Shown piece by piece: positions 35,809 to 40,878 of a stretch of 64,000 nt of DNA. Every line of letters starts with the position of its first letter. Positions within the stretch are counted from its first letter, which is position 1. The stretch is taken from contig NZ_AUFW01000017.1 of NCBI RefSeq assembly GCF_000426705.1, positions 1-64,000 on the forward strand, in the 5' to 3' direction. The translations under genes were made by a program, and so were the position numbers. The notes under the pieces were generated by a model. The model saw nothing but the letters and a program-made list of their open reading frames with translations, searched no databases and was not told the origin of the DNA. The stretch comes from Spirochaeta cellobiosiphila DSM 17781. GTDB taxonomy: Bacteria > Spirochaetota > Spirochaetia > DSM-17781.

Positions 35809-37179
35809 ATGAACAAGATAGTCGTTAAATTTGGGGGATCCAATCTTAAAGATGAACAGGGCATAACATGGATCACCCAAAGAGTTAAAGAATATAACAG
35901 CCCTCTTATCATCGTTGTTTCAGCTTTTTTTGGTATAACAAACTTTCTCACTGATGGCATTGAAAAGGTCCTGCAAAACAGTGAAGAGATTCAAGCAATT
36001 CTCTCCCGAATTAGAAATAAAAAACACAAAACAATTGATTACTTCATACAAGAGAACGAAGATAATCTAAAAGTAAAAGCTTTACTTGATATCAGACTTG
36101 GTGAGTTGGAAAAGTTTCTTAAAGGCATCAATTACATTGGGGACATACCTGATTTTATTTCTGATAAAGTTCTTAGTTATGGGGAAAGACTTAGCTCACT
36201 CTTACTTACACAAATACTGCAATCCATGGGTATAGAGGCTCAGGAAGCATTGCCAGAGGATATTGGTTTCTATACCGATGGAGAGCATGGGAATGCTACT
36301 ATTGATTTTGAGATAAGCACTCCTCTGGTTCGAGAATCATTAAAAGAAGACAAGGTCTATATCATTCCAGGATTTTACGGCATGTCCCAAAGCAATAAGG
36401 TAACTTTACTTGGCCGCGGGGGATCAGATTACTCAGCAGCAGGGTTGGCTAAGATGATGGGAGCTCCCTCTCTGGATATCTGGAAAGATGTCTCTGGCTA
36501 CCGAACGGCTGATCCTAAAATTGTCCCCTCATCATTAGGGATAGCAGAGCTCAGCTATCAGGAAGCTGCAGAGTTAAGCTATTTTGGGGCCAAAATCCTT
36601 CATCCCAGAACAGTAGAACCGTTGCTGGAAACATCCATTCCTATTCGTATATTCAATATAGAAGAAGAGGGATTATCCCCAAAATCACAAATAACGGATC
36701 ATAGAATTATTAATGACAGAGTTATAAAATCAGTGACCTACTCTAATGATTTTGCCATCCTTAGATTAGAAGGGCCGGGTGTAGGTGTCAAACACGGGAT
36801 ATTAGCTGATGTTACTGGCTTACTTAATGATAACAAGATCAATATCAAATCAGTCGTCACAAGCCAAACAGTTATTAATATCTATTTAGAATCTGGTGAT
36901 TTAGATCAGGCCTTGGAGATCCTTGGTAAGTTAAAGAATTCAGCAATTACAAAGATCACTGGAGAGGACAAACAAACATTGGTAGCTGTAGTCGGACACG
37001 GTATCAAAGACAAGCCTGGCATAGCAATGACCATGATAGCCGCCTTATCGGATCAGAACATTAATATTAAAAACATAGCCTTGGGGGCAAGCGACGTAGC
37101 GTCCTATCTGGTTATCGATAATGAAGACAAAATAAATGCAGTAAAAGCCATTCATGAGGCTTTTTTTACACAGAGGTAG
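35809..37179 (+). CDS. lysC: Aspartate kinase
   Basis: A 456-residue enzyme that phosphorylates aspartate, the first step to lysine, threonine, methionine and diaminopimelate. Seen: KFGGSNLKDEQGI at the ATP site (about 4-16; KFGGT is more usual), DKVLSYGERLSSLLLT (about 122-137), TLLGRGGSDYSAAGLA (about 200-215), WKDVSGYRTADPKIVP (about 224-239), and two C-terminal ACT domains (about 305-450) with GILADVTGLLNDNKINIKSV and KPGIAMTMIAALSDQNINIK. The ACT pair indicates feedback control. There is no Shine-Dalgarno; CATAAT lies 6 bases before the ATG, but no good -35 box is seen. The YhhN gene follows after three bases. Confidence 0.93.
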   Translation: MNKIVVKFGGSNLKDEQGITWITQRVKEYNSPLIIVVSAFFGITNFLTDGIEKVLQNSEEIQAILSRIRNKKHKTIDYFIQENEDNLKVKALLDIRLGELEKFLKGINYIGDIPDFISDKVLSYGERLSSLLLTQILQSMGIEAQEALPEDIGFYTDGEHGNATIDFEISTPLVRESLKEDKVYIIPGFYGMSQSNKVTLLGRGGSDYSAAGLAKMMGAPSLDIWKDVSGYRTADPKIVPSSLGIAELSYQEAAELSYFGAKILHPRTVEPLLETSIPIRIFNIEEEGLSPKSQITDHRIINDRVIKSVTYSNDFAILRLEGPGVGVKHGILADVTGLLNDNKINIKSVVTSQTVINIYLESGDLDQALEILGKLKNSAITKITGEDKQTLVAVVGHGIKDKPGIAMTMIAALSDQNINIKNIALGASDVASYLVIDNEDKINAVKAIHEAFFTQR

Positions 37180-37182
37180 TCT

Positions 37183-37848
37183 ATGGATAAGTTTGTATTA
37201 CTATCATTATCCGCTCTATTGTACTTATTAGGAGCTGTATGTAATCACAAAAAATCTTTATTTGAAGTCTTGTTTAAAGTACTGGCAACGGCGATCATTG
37301 TGTTCCTTTTAGGAACAAACCTATCCCCGTCCATTCAAGCTGTGTTTATTGGGGCTGTGTTTGCTCTACTCGGAGATGCAGTATTAGCAGTGAATAATCA
37401 TGTAGAGGACGATACCACTCCTTCTCTTGTATTAATGGGTATTGGAATACTTCTGTTTCTCATAGGCTATCTGTGTTATGGAATTACCTTTCTTGCAAGG
37501 GGCGAGGAAGTCATCTTTTCTCTAGTCTTCCTAATAGGGATGACATTCCTAACTTTTGCTTGTTATAGGCAATTCAAATTACTAGACAAAGTTACAAGAG
37601 TTCCGGTTATCTTATACTGTCTTCAAGGGATTTTATTAATAACTGCGGCCTTTCGACTGCTTTTGAGTTCTCCCTCTTTATCGACGGCTCTTATATTCGT
37701 AGGAAGTGCCGGCCTGTACATATCAGATATGATTATCGGTTTTAATCTGTTTTGTAAAAAACTCGATAAAGGAGAGATAGGAATCATGGCAACCTACGCC
37801 TTAGGTCAAATCGCGATTACATGGGGTGTAATCAACGGCTTTTCTTGA
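37183..37848 (+). CDS. YhhN family membrane protein (TMEM86/lysoplasmalogenase-like)
   Basis: A 221-residue protein with about eight membrane segments. Seen: FKVLATAIIVFLLG (about 28-41), the family signature AVFALLGDAVLAV (about 60-72), and LIFVGSAGLYISDMIIGFN (about 167-185) with a conserved Asp. Animal relatives hydrolyse the vinyl-ether bond of lysoplasmalogens; plasmalogens occur in some anaerobic bacteria, so this is a plausible substrate, not shown. AGAGG precedes the ATG and the gene is tightly coupled to lysC. Confidence 0.8.
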   Translation: MDKFVLLSLSALLYLLGAVCNHKKSLFEVLFKVLATAIIVFLLGTNLSPSIQAVFIGAVFALLGDAVLAVNNHVEDDTTPSLVLMGIGILLFLIGYLCYGITFLARGEEVIFSLVFLIGMTFLTFACYRQFKLLDKVTRVPVILYCLQGILLITAAFRLLLSSPSLSTALIFVGSAGLYISDMIIGFNLFCKKLDKGEIGIMATYALGQIAITWGVINGFS

Positions 37849-37872
37849 CAGAGAACCTAAAAAAACTAATAT
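37845..37872 (+). promoter_or_regulatory. Promoter of rex, directly abutting its start codon
   Basis: TTGACA (37845-37850), a 16-base spacer and TAATAT (37867-37872) end 7 bases before the ATG at 37880. There is no ribosome site between, so the rex message is predicted to begin at or next to its start codon. Confidence 0.7.
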
Positions 37873-37879
37873 TAAGCCC

Positions 37880-38509
37880 ATGTCTCAAAACATCCCTAAA
37901 CCTGCTATTAAACGTTTGGCGTCTTTATACCCTATGTTATCAAAATTATTGGAAGAAGGACAAAAAAGTCTATCCAGTCAAGAGTTGGGAACCTTAGTAG
38001 GAGCTCCTGCCCACACTATACGCAAGGATTTTTCCTATCTCAAAGACAAACCTATCAGTACAGGAACTTATAACCTCAGTGAATTAAGGGATGTCATAGG
38101 TGCAGCCCTCGGATTAACCAGTAAATCCAAGACCTGTATTGTTGGTCTGGGAGAACTTGGACAGGCGATAATGAACTACCCTGTGTTACTAGGGGATAAT
38201 TATAATTTAGTCGCTGGATTTGATACGAACATTAATCGACTGGAAATTCTCAAAACCCCCTTACCTCTTTTTCCAGCCTATGAATTACCAGAAGTGGTAG
38301 CTCAAAAACAGATTCTTTTGGGAATATTAGCGGTAGATACAGCTTATGTAGATAAATCTCTTCAAAGAATGATTGAAGGTGGAATCAAGGGGATACTAAA
38401 TCTAAGCCCCATAATTCTCCCAGAACAAATAGAATCCGTACAAATACGAAACATATTTTTATCAGGAGAACTAAACCTTTTGGAAGGTTTAATCAAAAAT
38501 TCTACTTAA
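37880..38509 (+). CDS. rex: Redox-sensing transcriptional repressor Rex
   Basis: A 209-residue repressor that binds DNA when NADH/NAD is low and lets go when NADH binds. Seen: the N-terminal winged helix IPKPAIKRLASLYPML and SSQELGTLVGAPAHTIRKDFSYL (about 5-57), the Rossmann motif CIVGLGELGQAIMNYP (about 87-102) with NLVAGFDTNINRLEIL after it, and a swapped C-terminal helix. Length matches the family. Two sites of the Rex consensus lie just downstream, bracketing the serC promoter, so serC-serA is the obvious local target. Confidence 0.95.
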   Translation: MSQNIPKPAIKRLASLYPMLSKLLEEGQKSLSSQELGTLVGAPAHTIRKDFSYLKDKPISTGTYNLSELRDVIGAALGLTSKSKTCIVGLGELGQAIMNYPVLLGDNYNLVAGFDTNINRLEILKTPLPLFPAYELPEVVAQKQILLGILAVDTAYVDKSLQRMIEGGIKGILNLSPIILPEQIESVQIRNIFLSGELNLLEGLIKNST

Positions 38510-38527
38510 TTGTGAAATATTTCACAA
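38510..38527. promoter_or_regulatory. Rex operator 1 upstream of serC
   Basis: TTGTGAAATATTTCACAA is a perfect 18-base palindrome identical to the usual Rex consensus. It lies just upstream of the -35 box of the serC promoter and begins at the rex stop codon. Confidence 0.92.
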
Positions 38528-38534
38528 CAACCAA

Positions 38535-38563
38535 TTGACAGCATATAAAAGTGATCTTATAGT
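38535..38563 (+). promoter_or_regulatory. Promoter of serC-serA
   Basis: TTGACA (38535-38540), a 17-base spacer and TATAGT (38558-38563). It is flanked by Rex sites on both sides. Confidence 0.85.
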
Positions 38564-38565
38564 AC

Positions 38566-38583
38566 CTGTGAATTATTTCACAA
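38566..38583. promoter_or_regulatory. Rex operator 2 over the serC transcription start
   Basis: CTGTGAATTATTTCACAA matches the Rex consensus in both half-sites with small differences. It begins three bases after the -10 box, so it should overlap the transcription start and block initiation when occupied. The serC Shine-Dalgarno AAGGAG follows directly. Confidence 0.85.
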
Positions 38584-38593
38584 GGAGATCATT

Positions 38594-39670
38594 ATGGATC
38601 GAGTATTCAACTTTTCTGCAGGCCCTTCCTGTTTACCAGAAAGGGTTCTTCAAAAAGCATCAGAGCAGATGCTAAATTACAAAGGTAGCGGTATGTCTGT
38701 TATGGAGATGAGTCACCGATCCAAATGGTTCGATGATATAATTAAAGAAACAGAACAACTCTATAGGGATAATATGAATATCCCAGATAATTATAAGGTT
38801 CTCTTCTTACAAGGGGGAGCCTCCTTACAGTTCACCATGATTCCTCAAAACCTATTTGGTAAGAACAAAAAGGCTGGTTATATCAATACCGGTGCTTGGT
38901 CTAAGAAAGCCATGAAGGAAGCAAAGATATTCGGTGAAGTTATTGAGTTAGCGTCTAGTGAAGACAAGGTGTACAACTACATTCCAGAAATCCCTGCCAT
39001 ACCATCTGACCTTGACTATGTTCATATTACCTACAACAACACCATATATGGAACGGTATACAAGAACATTCCTCAAACAAAGGATATTCCCCTAGTGGCA
39101 GATACTTCTAGTGGCATATTAAGTGCACCACTTGATGTGAGCCAATTTGGATTAATCTATGCAGGAGCTCAAAAGAACTTAGGTCCAGCTGGTGTCGCCG
39201 TTGTGATTATCAGAGAGGACTTAATTGGTAATGCTTTAGACAAGACACCGACCTTTCTCAATTATAAAACACATAGTGATGCAGGTAGCTTATTTAACAC
39301 TCCTCCTTGCTACAGTATCTATGTTTTAGGTCTTGTTCAAAAATGGATAAAAGAAGAAGGAGGACCGGAAGCTATCTATAAGGCTAATGAAGAAAAAGCC
39401 TCTCTTTTGTACAACTATCTTGATAACTCTGACTTCTTTAAAGGTACTGTTGTAAAGAAAGACAGATCCTTAATGAATGTTCCCTTTTTATCACCATCTG
39501 ATGAACTCAACGCCAAGTTCGTAAAAGAAGCAACAGCTCTAGGCATGGAAAACCTAAAAGGACACCGAACTGTTGGTGGTATGCGAGCCAGCATCTATAA
39601 TGCTATGCCTCTAAAAGGGGTTACAACCCTGATTGACTTTATGAAGAAATTTGAACAGGAGAACAAGTAA
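38594..39670 (+). CDS. serC: Phosphoserine aminotransferase
   Basis: A 358-residue PLP enzyme that makes 3-phosphoserine from 3-phosphohydroxypyruvate and glutamate. Seen: FNFSAGPSCLPERVL at the start, SGMSVMEMSHRSKWF (about 32-46), QGGASLQFTMIPQN (about 74-87), and the PLP lysine in YAGAQKNLGPAGVAVVII (about 190-207). The C-terminus has MRASIYNAMP with the phosphate-binding Arg. AAGGAG precedes the ATG. It forms an operon with serA (TAATG overlap) under an apparent Rex-controlled promoter. Confidence 0.95.
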   Translation: MDRVFNFSAGPSCLPERVLQKASEQMLNYKGSGMSVMEMSHRSKWFDDIIKETEQLYRDNMNIPDNYKVLFLQGGASLQFTMIPQNLFGKNKKAGYINTGAWSKKAMKEAKIFGEVIELASSEDKVYNYIPEIPAIPSDLDYVHITYNNTIYGTVYKNIPQTKDIPLVADTSSGILSAPLDVSQFGLIYAGAQKNLGPAGVAVVIIREDLIGNALDKTPTFLNYKTHSDAGSLFNTPPCYSIYVLGLVQKWIKEEGGPEAIYKANEEKASLLYNYLDNSDFFKGTVVKKDRSLMNVPFLSPSDELNAKFVKEATALGMENLKGHRTVGGMRASIYNAMPLKGVTTLIDFMKKFEQENK

Positions 39671-40842
39671 TGTATAAGATTCAAACCTTAAACAAAATAA
39701 GCACAAAAGGATTATCCAAACTACCATTGGATAATTACGAAATCGCCTCTGAGTTCTCCAAACCAGATGGTATTATTCTAAGAAGTTTTAAGATGCATGA
39801 TATGGATTTGCCAGAGTCTTTAAAGGCTGTAGCGAGGGCTGGTGCAGGAACAAACAATATTCCTATTGATAAGTGTTCTGAAAAAGGTATTGTTGTATTT
39901 AATACACCAGGAGCAAATGCTAATGCGGTTAAAGAGCTTGTTCTCACAGGTTTATTACTATCTTCACGTAAGATAGCCCAAGGAATAACTTGGGCTCAGA
40001 CCTTGAATGGTCAGGGAGACGAAGTCCCTGCCCTTATTGAAAAAGGTAAAAGTAATTATGTTGGTCCAGAGTTAATGGGAAAAAAACTAGGGGTTATTGG
40101 TTTAGGGGCCATTGGAGTCATGGTCGCTAATGCGGCGTATGCCCTTGGAATGGAAGTCGTTGGTTATGACCCCTTTATTTCTGTTAATGCAGCATGGGGC
40201 CTTCAAAAAGAAGTTCAACAAGCAAGAGACCTGGATAGTCTTATTTCAGAGGTAGATTATATTTCTGTCAATGTTCCTCTTAACGACAACACAAAGGGCA
40301 TGATCAATTTAGAAAAAATAAATAAGATGAAAGATGGCGTGCGCATCGTAAACTTCGCCCGAGGAGGATTAGTTAATAATAAAGATATTATTGCAGGTCT
40401 CAAATCCGGTAAAGTTGCTGCTTACGTTACAGACTTTCCAGATGAAGAACTAATAGCAACCGAGAATGTTATTGCTATCCCTCACCTTGGCGCCAGCACC
40501 CCCGAAGCAGAAGAAAACTGTGCTGTTATGGCTGCCACACAATTAAAAGACTTTCTTGAAACTGGAAATATAAAGAACTCTGTAAACTTTCCTGAATGTG
40601 AATTGCCTATAACAGGTAAAAGCCGAATACTAATTGCAAACAAGAATGTTCCGAATATGGTTGGTCAGATAACAACAATTTTAGCAGAAGCCAATATCAA
40701 TATCGATGACCTTTTAAACAAACATAGAGGCGAACTGGCTTACAATATTATTGAATTATCTACTGATGTTACTGATTCTGTTATTGATAAACTTAAATCT
40801 ATAGCAGGGATCACTATGGTAAGAGTTATTAAATTCTCATAA
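39670..40842 (+). CDS. serA: D-3-phosphoglycerate dehydrogenase
   Basis: A 390-residue enzyme that oxidises 3-phosphoglycerate with NAD, the first step of serine synthesis. Seen: VARAGAGTNNIPIDKCSEKGI (about 56-76 in part), the NAD motif GVIGLGAIGVMVANAAYALG (about 139-158), catalytic Arg in VNFARGGLVNN, Glu in DFPDEEL and His in AIPHLGASTPEAEENC (about 271-286), then an ACT domain (about 315-390). The ACT domain suggests feedback by serine; the length fits the short form with a single ACT. Because the enzyme makes NADH, Rex control would match it to cofactor balance. Confidence 0.94.
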   Translation: MYKIQTLNKISTKGLSKLPLDNYEIASEFSKPDGIILRSFKMHDMDLPESLKAVARAGAGTNNIPIDKCSEKGIVVFNTPGANANAVKELVLTGLLLSSRKIAQGITWAQTLNGQGDEVPALIEKGKSNYVGPELMGKKLGVIGLGAIGVMVANAAYALGMEVVGYDPFISVNAAWGLQKEVQQARDLDSLISEVDYISVNVPLNDNTKGMINLEKINKMKDGVRIVNFARGGLVNNKDIIAGLKSGKVAAYVTDFPDEELIATENVIAIPHLGASTPEAEENCAVMAATQLKDFLETGNIKNSVNFPECELPITGKSRILIANKNVPNMVGQITTILAEANINIDDLLNKHRGELAYNIIELSTDVTDSVIDKLKSIAGITMVRVIKFS

Positions 40843-40848
40843 ACCATT

Positions 40849-40878
40849 GGACTGGTATTTTTTGAGGAATACCAGTCC
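40849..40878 (+). terminator. Stem-loop terminator after serA
   Basis: Perfect 11-base arms ggactggtatt (40849-40859) and aataccagtcc (40868-40878). The downstream stretch taatctttctt is only moderately T-rich, so efficiency is uncertain. Confidence 0.65.

Follow-up and report, generated by a model that had tools for sequence, protein, structure and literature searches.

The window considered here is the whole 64,000-nucleotide stretch of DNA, and the part of interest is a short run on its forward strand in which rex is followed directly by serC and serA, with two Rex-type palindromes and a promoter lying between rex and serC. The features, in order, are as follows.

37845..37872, + strand: possible promoter of rex itself, TTGACA-N16-TAATAT; matches only 10/12 consensus positions and has no operator nearby
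37880..38509, + strand: rex, 209 aa, serine-linked Rex lineage (NCBIfam NF003995; PDB 5zz5, E 1.5e-29; tree)
38510..38527, no strand assigned: upstream (distal) Rex operator TTGTGAAATATTTCACAA, a perfect palindrome directly before the -35 box; 0 mismatches to TTGTGAAWWWWTTCACAA; same architecture in locus L026
38535..38563, + strand: serC-serA promoter, TTGACA-N17-TATAGT, between the operators; 11/12 consensus positions; in many relatives at the same place relative to the proximal operator
38566..38583, no strand assigned: downstream (proximal) Rex operator CTGTGAATTATTTCACAA; 1 mismatch to TTGTGAAWWWWTTCACAA; over the predicted transcription start
38594..39670, + strand: serC, phosphoserine aminotransferase (NCBIfam TIGR01364 above cut-off; PDB E 5e-114)
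39670..40842, + strand: serA, phosphoglycerate dehydrogenase (PGDH), short ACT-domain type (Pfam 2-Hacid_dh_C; PDB PGDH, E 2e-42)
40849..40878, + strand: terminator-like hairpin 3' of serA, with a 13-pair stem and a T-rich tail

The window Rex scores 132.8 bits against NF003995 (cut-off 126), matches PF06971 and PF02629 above cut-off (a winged helix and a CoA_binding/Rossmann domain) and, at the E value listed, has T. maritima Rex as its closest relative in the PDB. SerC reaches 499.3 against a TIGR01364 cut-off of 443.6, and its gene overlaps serA by one base; the remaining matches to serA in the genome are generic 2-hydroxyacid dehydrogenases, only about 31–33% identical. The two operators are 18-bp palindromes placed 56 bp apart, start to start, the distal one beginning one base past the end of rex at 38509. 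Between them, the promoter (TTGACA at 38535-38540, TATAGT at 38558-38563) gives a better sigma-70-like match than anything else in the region, and the proximal operator covers the predicted start at about 38570, its last two bases falling within the AAGGAG ribosome-binding site ahead of the serC start at 38594. The sequence-only reading, which placed two Rex sites around the serC-serA promoter with rex directly upstream, is thus borne out in its description of the locus.

The 5' side of rex is arranged differently. There is no operator upstream of the gene and a promoter-like sequence stands just before it, so that autoregulation seems to be absent in the window. An aspartokinase gene and a YhhN-family gene (35809-37848) lie directly 5' of rex on the same strand, with gaps of 3 and 31 bp, and rex may therefore be co-transcribed with them; this neighbourhood was absent from every other locus examined.

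Distribution of the sites in the genome

A scan of the window allowing three mismatches returns three sites where 1.18 are expected, which alone is unremarkable. The 3.95-Mb genome contains only three sites at one mismatch or fewer: the two serC operators and a third (C26:135684), which was discarded as a Rex operator because it lies within a dicarboxylate-symporter-like gene. The core GTGAANNNNTTCAC occurs seven times in the whole genome compared with nine times for a reversed control pattern, and the Rex core motif is not enriched genome-wide. The five core palindromes away from serC all look coding (C26:135684 is the one that could be assigned to a named gene), and the motif is thus concentrated at serC rather than spread over the genome, the serC pair being the only Rex-type core palindromes found outside coding sequence. 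A chance origin of this pair was rejected, given its spacing of 56 bp, the near-consensus promoter, the adjacent rex and the statistics across relatives described below. Exact copies of TGTGAANNNNTTCACA number 0–3 per genome in 14 genomes with the lineage, most of them at the rex-serCA operon. Rex is familiar as a redox regulator that controls fermentation and respiration globally, with many operators over the genome; here, the only non-coding sites are the two at serC, and serine-linked Rex appears to be dedicated to one operon, a local rather than a global regulator.

Conservation across phyla and a separate Rex lineage

We searched for Rex in the window's class, in GTDB contigs and in the phyla to which Fibrobacter-, Omnitrophota- and Margulisbacteria-type hits belonged, giving 244 sequences that were reduced to 156 by clustering at 70% identity. 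Loci L050 and L137-L139, stubs of 100 bases, were left out. One large group has rex followed immediately by serC-serA (serA alone in some families) with the palindrome upstream, and this arrangement is found in Spirochaetota, Fibrobacterota, Omnitrophota, Margulisiibacteriota and others. At least one operator (at most two mismatches) is present in 100 of the 105 clustered serine-linked loci, where dinucleotide shuffles give an expectation of 2.7, and a second operator lies upstream in 53 of them (1.6 expected), so that about half of the loci have one operator only. With at most one mismatch allowed, sites occur in 99 of 112 serine-linked loci versus 8 of 64 other Rex loci. The sequence-only reading had named a lack of conserved sites before serC in related genomes as grounds for refutation, and the sites are in fact kept; conservation across phyla strongly supports Rex control of serC-serA. 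Two contigs labelled Clostridia (L146 and L148) also carry a serine-linked Rex with an operator, through either horizontal transfer or a binning error.

In most relatives the operators stand before rex, which would fit sites that serve rex autoregulation with serC-serA as a mere passenger. This explanation is hardly credible and, as the only role of the sites, was rejected. First, the window and loci L106, L113 and L265 have their operators between rex and serC. Second, eight Rex proteins within the serine-linked set are not adjacent to serine genes; serC was located separately in their genomes, ten of the eleven hits having enough upstream sequence, and nine of these ten testable genomes have, within 500 bp upstream of serC, at least one operator (at most two mismatches). 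Pairs are present at six of these serC genes, 135, 135, 135, 126, 135 and 87 bp apart, three of them from near-identical relatives. Four genomes (G306, G312, G390 and G136) have the non-adjacent rex within a few kilobases of serC; in others, G179 among them, the distance is about 148 kb or rex is on another contig. The operators placed before serC when rex is elsewhere, together with those between rex and serC, indicate that the sites follow serC and not rex.

A maximum-likelihood tree was built from 153 Rex proteins by quick search, with SH-aLRT as the only measure of support. In it, all 41 canonical Rex, including those of Bacillota and the two other Rex proteins of the window genome, rex2 and rex3, fall on one side of a branch with SH-aLRT 97, and every serine-linked Rex falls on the other. 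The tree is unrooted, and a root placed among canonical Rex would make serine-linked Rex a single clade. The tree and the gene neighbourhoods together point to a Rex lineage that is nearly confined to the serine operon and separate from all canonical Rex sampled.

The second Rex of the genome (G000:C25:257340-257981; L046:2841-3482) is transcribed away from genes that encode a small iron-sulphur-type protein and an [FeFe]-hydrogenase-like protein, followed by a phosphatase-like gene, which is a classical setting for Rex. The third (G000:C4:34136-34783; L047:3136-3783) has a cyclic-nucleotide-binding-domain-like protein encoded about 2 kb away. A TTGTGAA-type site is absent upstream of both. 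In L142 (G034:C124), two Rex-type palindromes 17 bp apart are found 557-574 bp upstream of a non-serine Rex.

The presence of two canonical Rex in the same genome raises the question of which protein reads the serC sites, and the core of the sites also satisfies the CRP-type pattern, TGTGA-N6-TCACA. Binding by a CRP-family protein or by one of the two other Rex is, in our judgement, improbable: the sites co-occur with serine-linked rex at about a hundred loci in several phyla, their conserved A at position 7 and T at position 12 fit Rex better than CRP, and the genome has only two non-coding sites, unlike what a global regulator would have. Moreover, a variant palindrome, ATGTGAA-N4-TTCACTT, stands instead upstream of several other Rex genes of the class (39-49 bp before rex in the canonical loci L031, L033 and L143), and this variant suggests separate operators for the paralogous Rex of a cell.

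Operator spacing, promoter geometry and proposed mechanism

Where two operators are present, their spacing ranges from 43 to 148 bp and proceeds in steps of about 10.2 bp, with clusters at 56, 65-67, 75-77, 84-88, 92-96, 105-106, 117-118, 127-129, 135-138 and 147-148 bp. The discovery set gives a Rayleigh p of 8e-6 at a period of 10.5 bp, and a separate second set of loci, unused before, gives 9e-8 with the phase almost unchanged (0.14 and 0.11 turns), p values which are too small as they stand because the loci are related. The phasing also holds within groups (R 0.80 in the Treponemataceae-type family f24 and 0.67 in all others) and is again significant when only distinct values are counted (R 0.66), checks which address kinship only in part; sites with at most one mismatch give R 0.67. 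The best period is 10.23 bp (95% interval 10.09-10.37), a constant helical phase of the kind that is a feature of DNA-looping repressors, and the window's 56 bp lies 0.10 turn from the mean phase, placement of the two sites on the same side of the helix depending on the helical repeat assumed. Cooperation between two Rex dimers, whether direct or via a small loop, would best account for a constant phase over such distances. Phased double operators and DNA loops are familiar from LacI, GalR and AraC, and the likeness extends to two operators around a promoter with a spacing constrained in helical steps, the evidence here being comparative only.

A good promoter was called in 118 of 133 loci, and its -10 box starts 8 bp before the proximal operator in 32 of them, the window included. 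In most of the rest the distance is 4-13 bp, and there is a second mode roughly one turn farther away. As the downstream operator sits just after the -10 box, the geometry reads as that of a repressor over the start site. Activation of serC-serA by Rex from the upstream operator is a very improbable alternative: the distal operator of the window does abut the -35 box, and activation has been proposed for a C. bescii hydrogenase operon, which has a Rex site upstream of its promoter (PMC8579813), but the near-universal operator is the proximal one over the start site, and the distal sites are spread over 43-148 bp.

The reading we prefer, and hold to be likely, is repression of serC-serA by serine-linked Rex through two operators, with phased cooperation or looping and with probable release by NADH. 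The sites, their conservation, their position over the promoter, the choice of serC as target and the phasing are seen in the sequence; binding, repression, cooperativity or looping, and the effector we infer, as follows. Two Rex dimers would occupy the two operators; Rex on the downstream one would cover the transcription start and thus block RNA polymerase, while the upstream one, at a constant helical phase, would allow cooperative binding or a small loop that encloses the promoter. As with other Rex, NADH bound by the Rossmann domain would probably bring about release, and serC-serA would be derepressed at high NADH. Such derepression may look backwards, as PGDH itself makes NADH; a high NADH/NAD+ ratio would disfavour the oxidation of 3-phosphoglycerate, however, so that a larger amount of enzyme would be required to sustain the supply of serine.

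Relation to known Rex systems and the effector

A link between Rex and serCA is already known from a single genus, whose Rex is global. Gel shifts show C. bescii Rex binding ahead of an operon for a class V aminotransferase and PGDH, and in a rex deletion this operon is up by log2 0.57-0.63 in RNA-seq, the shading for significance not being legible in the source (PMC6391272); all 14 Caldicellulosiruptor genomes have serC-serA among their predicted Rex targets (PMC8579813). The sequence-only reading had regarded direct control of serine synthesis as a distinct regulatory link, and while such control is strongly supported, it is not new (PMC6391272, PMC8579813). The two systems share a site upstream of the aminotransferase-PGDH operon. 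In Caldicellulosiruptor, however, the regulator is global, is encoded away from the operon and has a single site listed there, whereas the rex gene described here lies beside serC-serA, encodes a member of another lineage and is accompanied by double, phased operators. The open-access literature yielded no account of a Rex lineage dedicated to serine, of phased Rex operators, or of rex-serC-serA operons in either Spirochaetota or Fibrobacterota. As this search covered few subscription papers, it is weak evidence that what may be new is a Rex lineage nearly confined to the serine operon, together with its phased double operators.

If correct, this would mean that the Rex sensor has been repurposed and kept, tied to one biosynthetic operon over several phyla, and that serine synthesis is an output of the redox state of the cell or of a new signal. 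Many uncultured bacteria would gain a predicted regulator-target pair, and the natural series of operator spacings offers a direct test bed for cooperative binding or looping by Rex.

With the canonical Rex of T. maritima, T. aquaticus, B. subtilis and S. aureus, the lineage shares the winged-helix and Rossmann fold, the 18-bp TTGTGAA-N4-TTCACAA site, Arg10/Arg46/Asp48 and GxGxxG. In the window Rex, the DNA contacts Arg10, Ser31, Arg46, Lys47 and Asp48 are all present, and Arg10, Arg46 and Asp48 are found in 107 of 107 lineage members. GxGxxG is present as GLGELG, as is the adenosine-binding Asp112, and since both are kept in most members, dinucleotide probably binds in most of them, the window's protein included. 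In contrast to canonical Rex, the lineage lacks Tyr14, which is universal in the former, has an altered wing, appears to act locally rather than globally and carries lineage-specific residues, Asn116 (104/107) and Glu119 (103/107; T. aquaticus numbering), beside Asp112. Its switch residues are also relaxed. Judged against the published redox switch Arg16-Tyr98-Asp188 (PMC6125430, PMC8836258), the window Rex has Pro16, Tyr98 and Phe188; Arg16 is also missing from TmRex, a functional Rex (PMC6125430). Tyr98 occurs with Asp or Asn at 188 in 28 of 107 lineage members versus 31 of 42 canonical Rex. The redox part of the sequence-only reading is weakened by this relaxation, NADH being a less secure effector than it had assumed. 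The window protein is nevertheless likely to sense NADH, and a ligand other than NADH is possible.

These differences bear on a further reading, in which repressor and operators are the same and the effector has changed: a metabolite of the serine pathway or a different nucleotide would be sensed, either in place of NADH/NAD+ or in addition to it. Asn116 and Glu119 beside Asp112, the relaxed switch and nine of 107 lineage members without an intact GxGxxG (none among the canonical Rex sampled), six of which fall in two families that keep the operators and the serA linkage, all point this way. On the other hand, most members keep GxGxxG and Asp112, and NADH contacts in Rex are partly main-chain, so that loss of side chains need not abolish sensing (PMC8836258). 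We therefore regard a changed effector as unlikely, though far from negligible. The fuller proposal, of a one-operon Rex over several phyla that loops the promoter between phased operators and responds through the Asn116/Glu119 site to a signal other than plain NADH/NAD+, is slightly more doubtful still.

The six members just mentioned (L034, L036, L042, L098, L100 and L129) have lost the middle glycine of GxGxxG (for example GLDSWG) and retain NRLE-type residues; their Rex may have lost dinucleotide binding.
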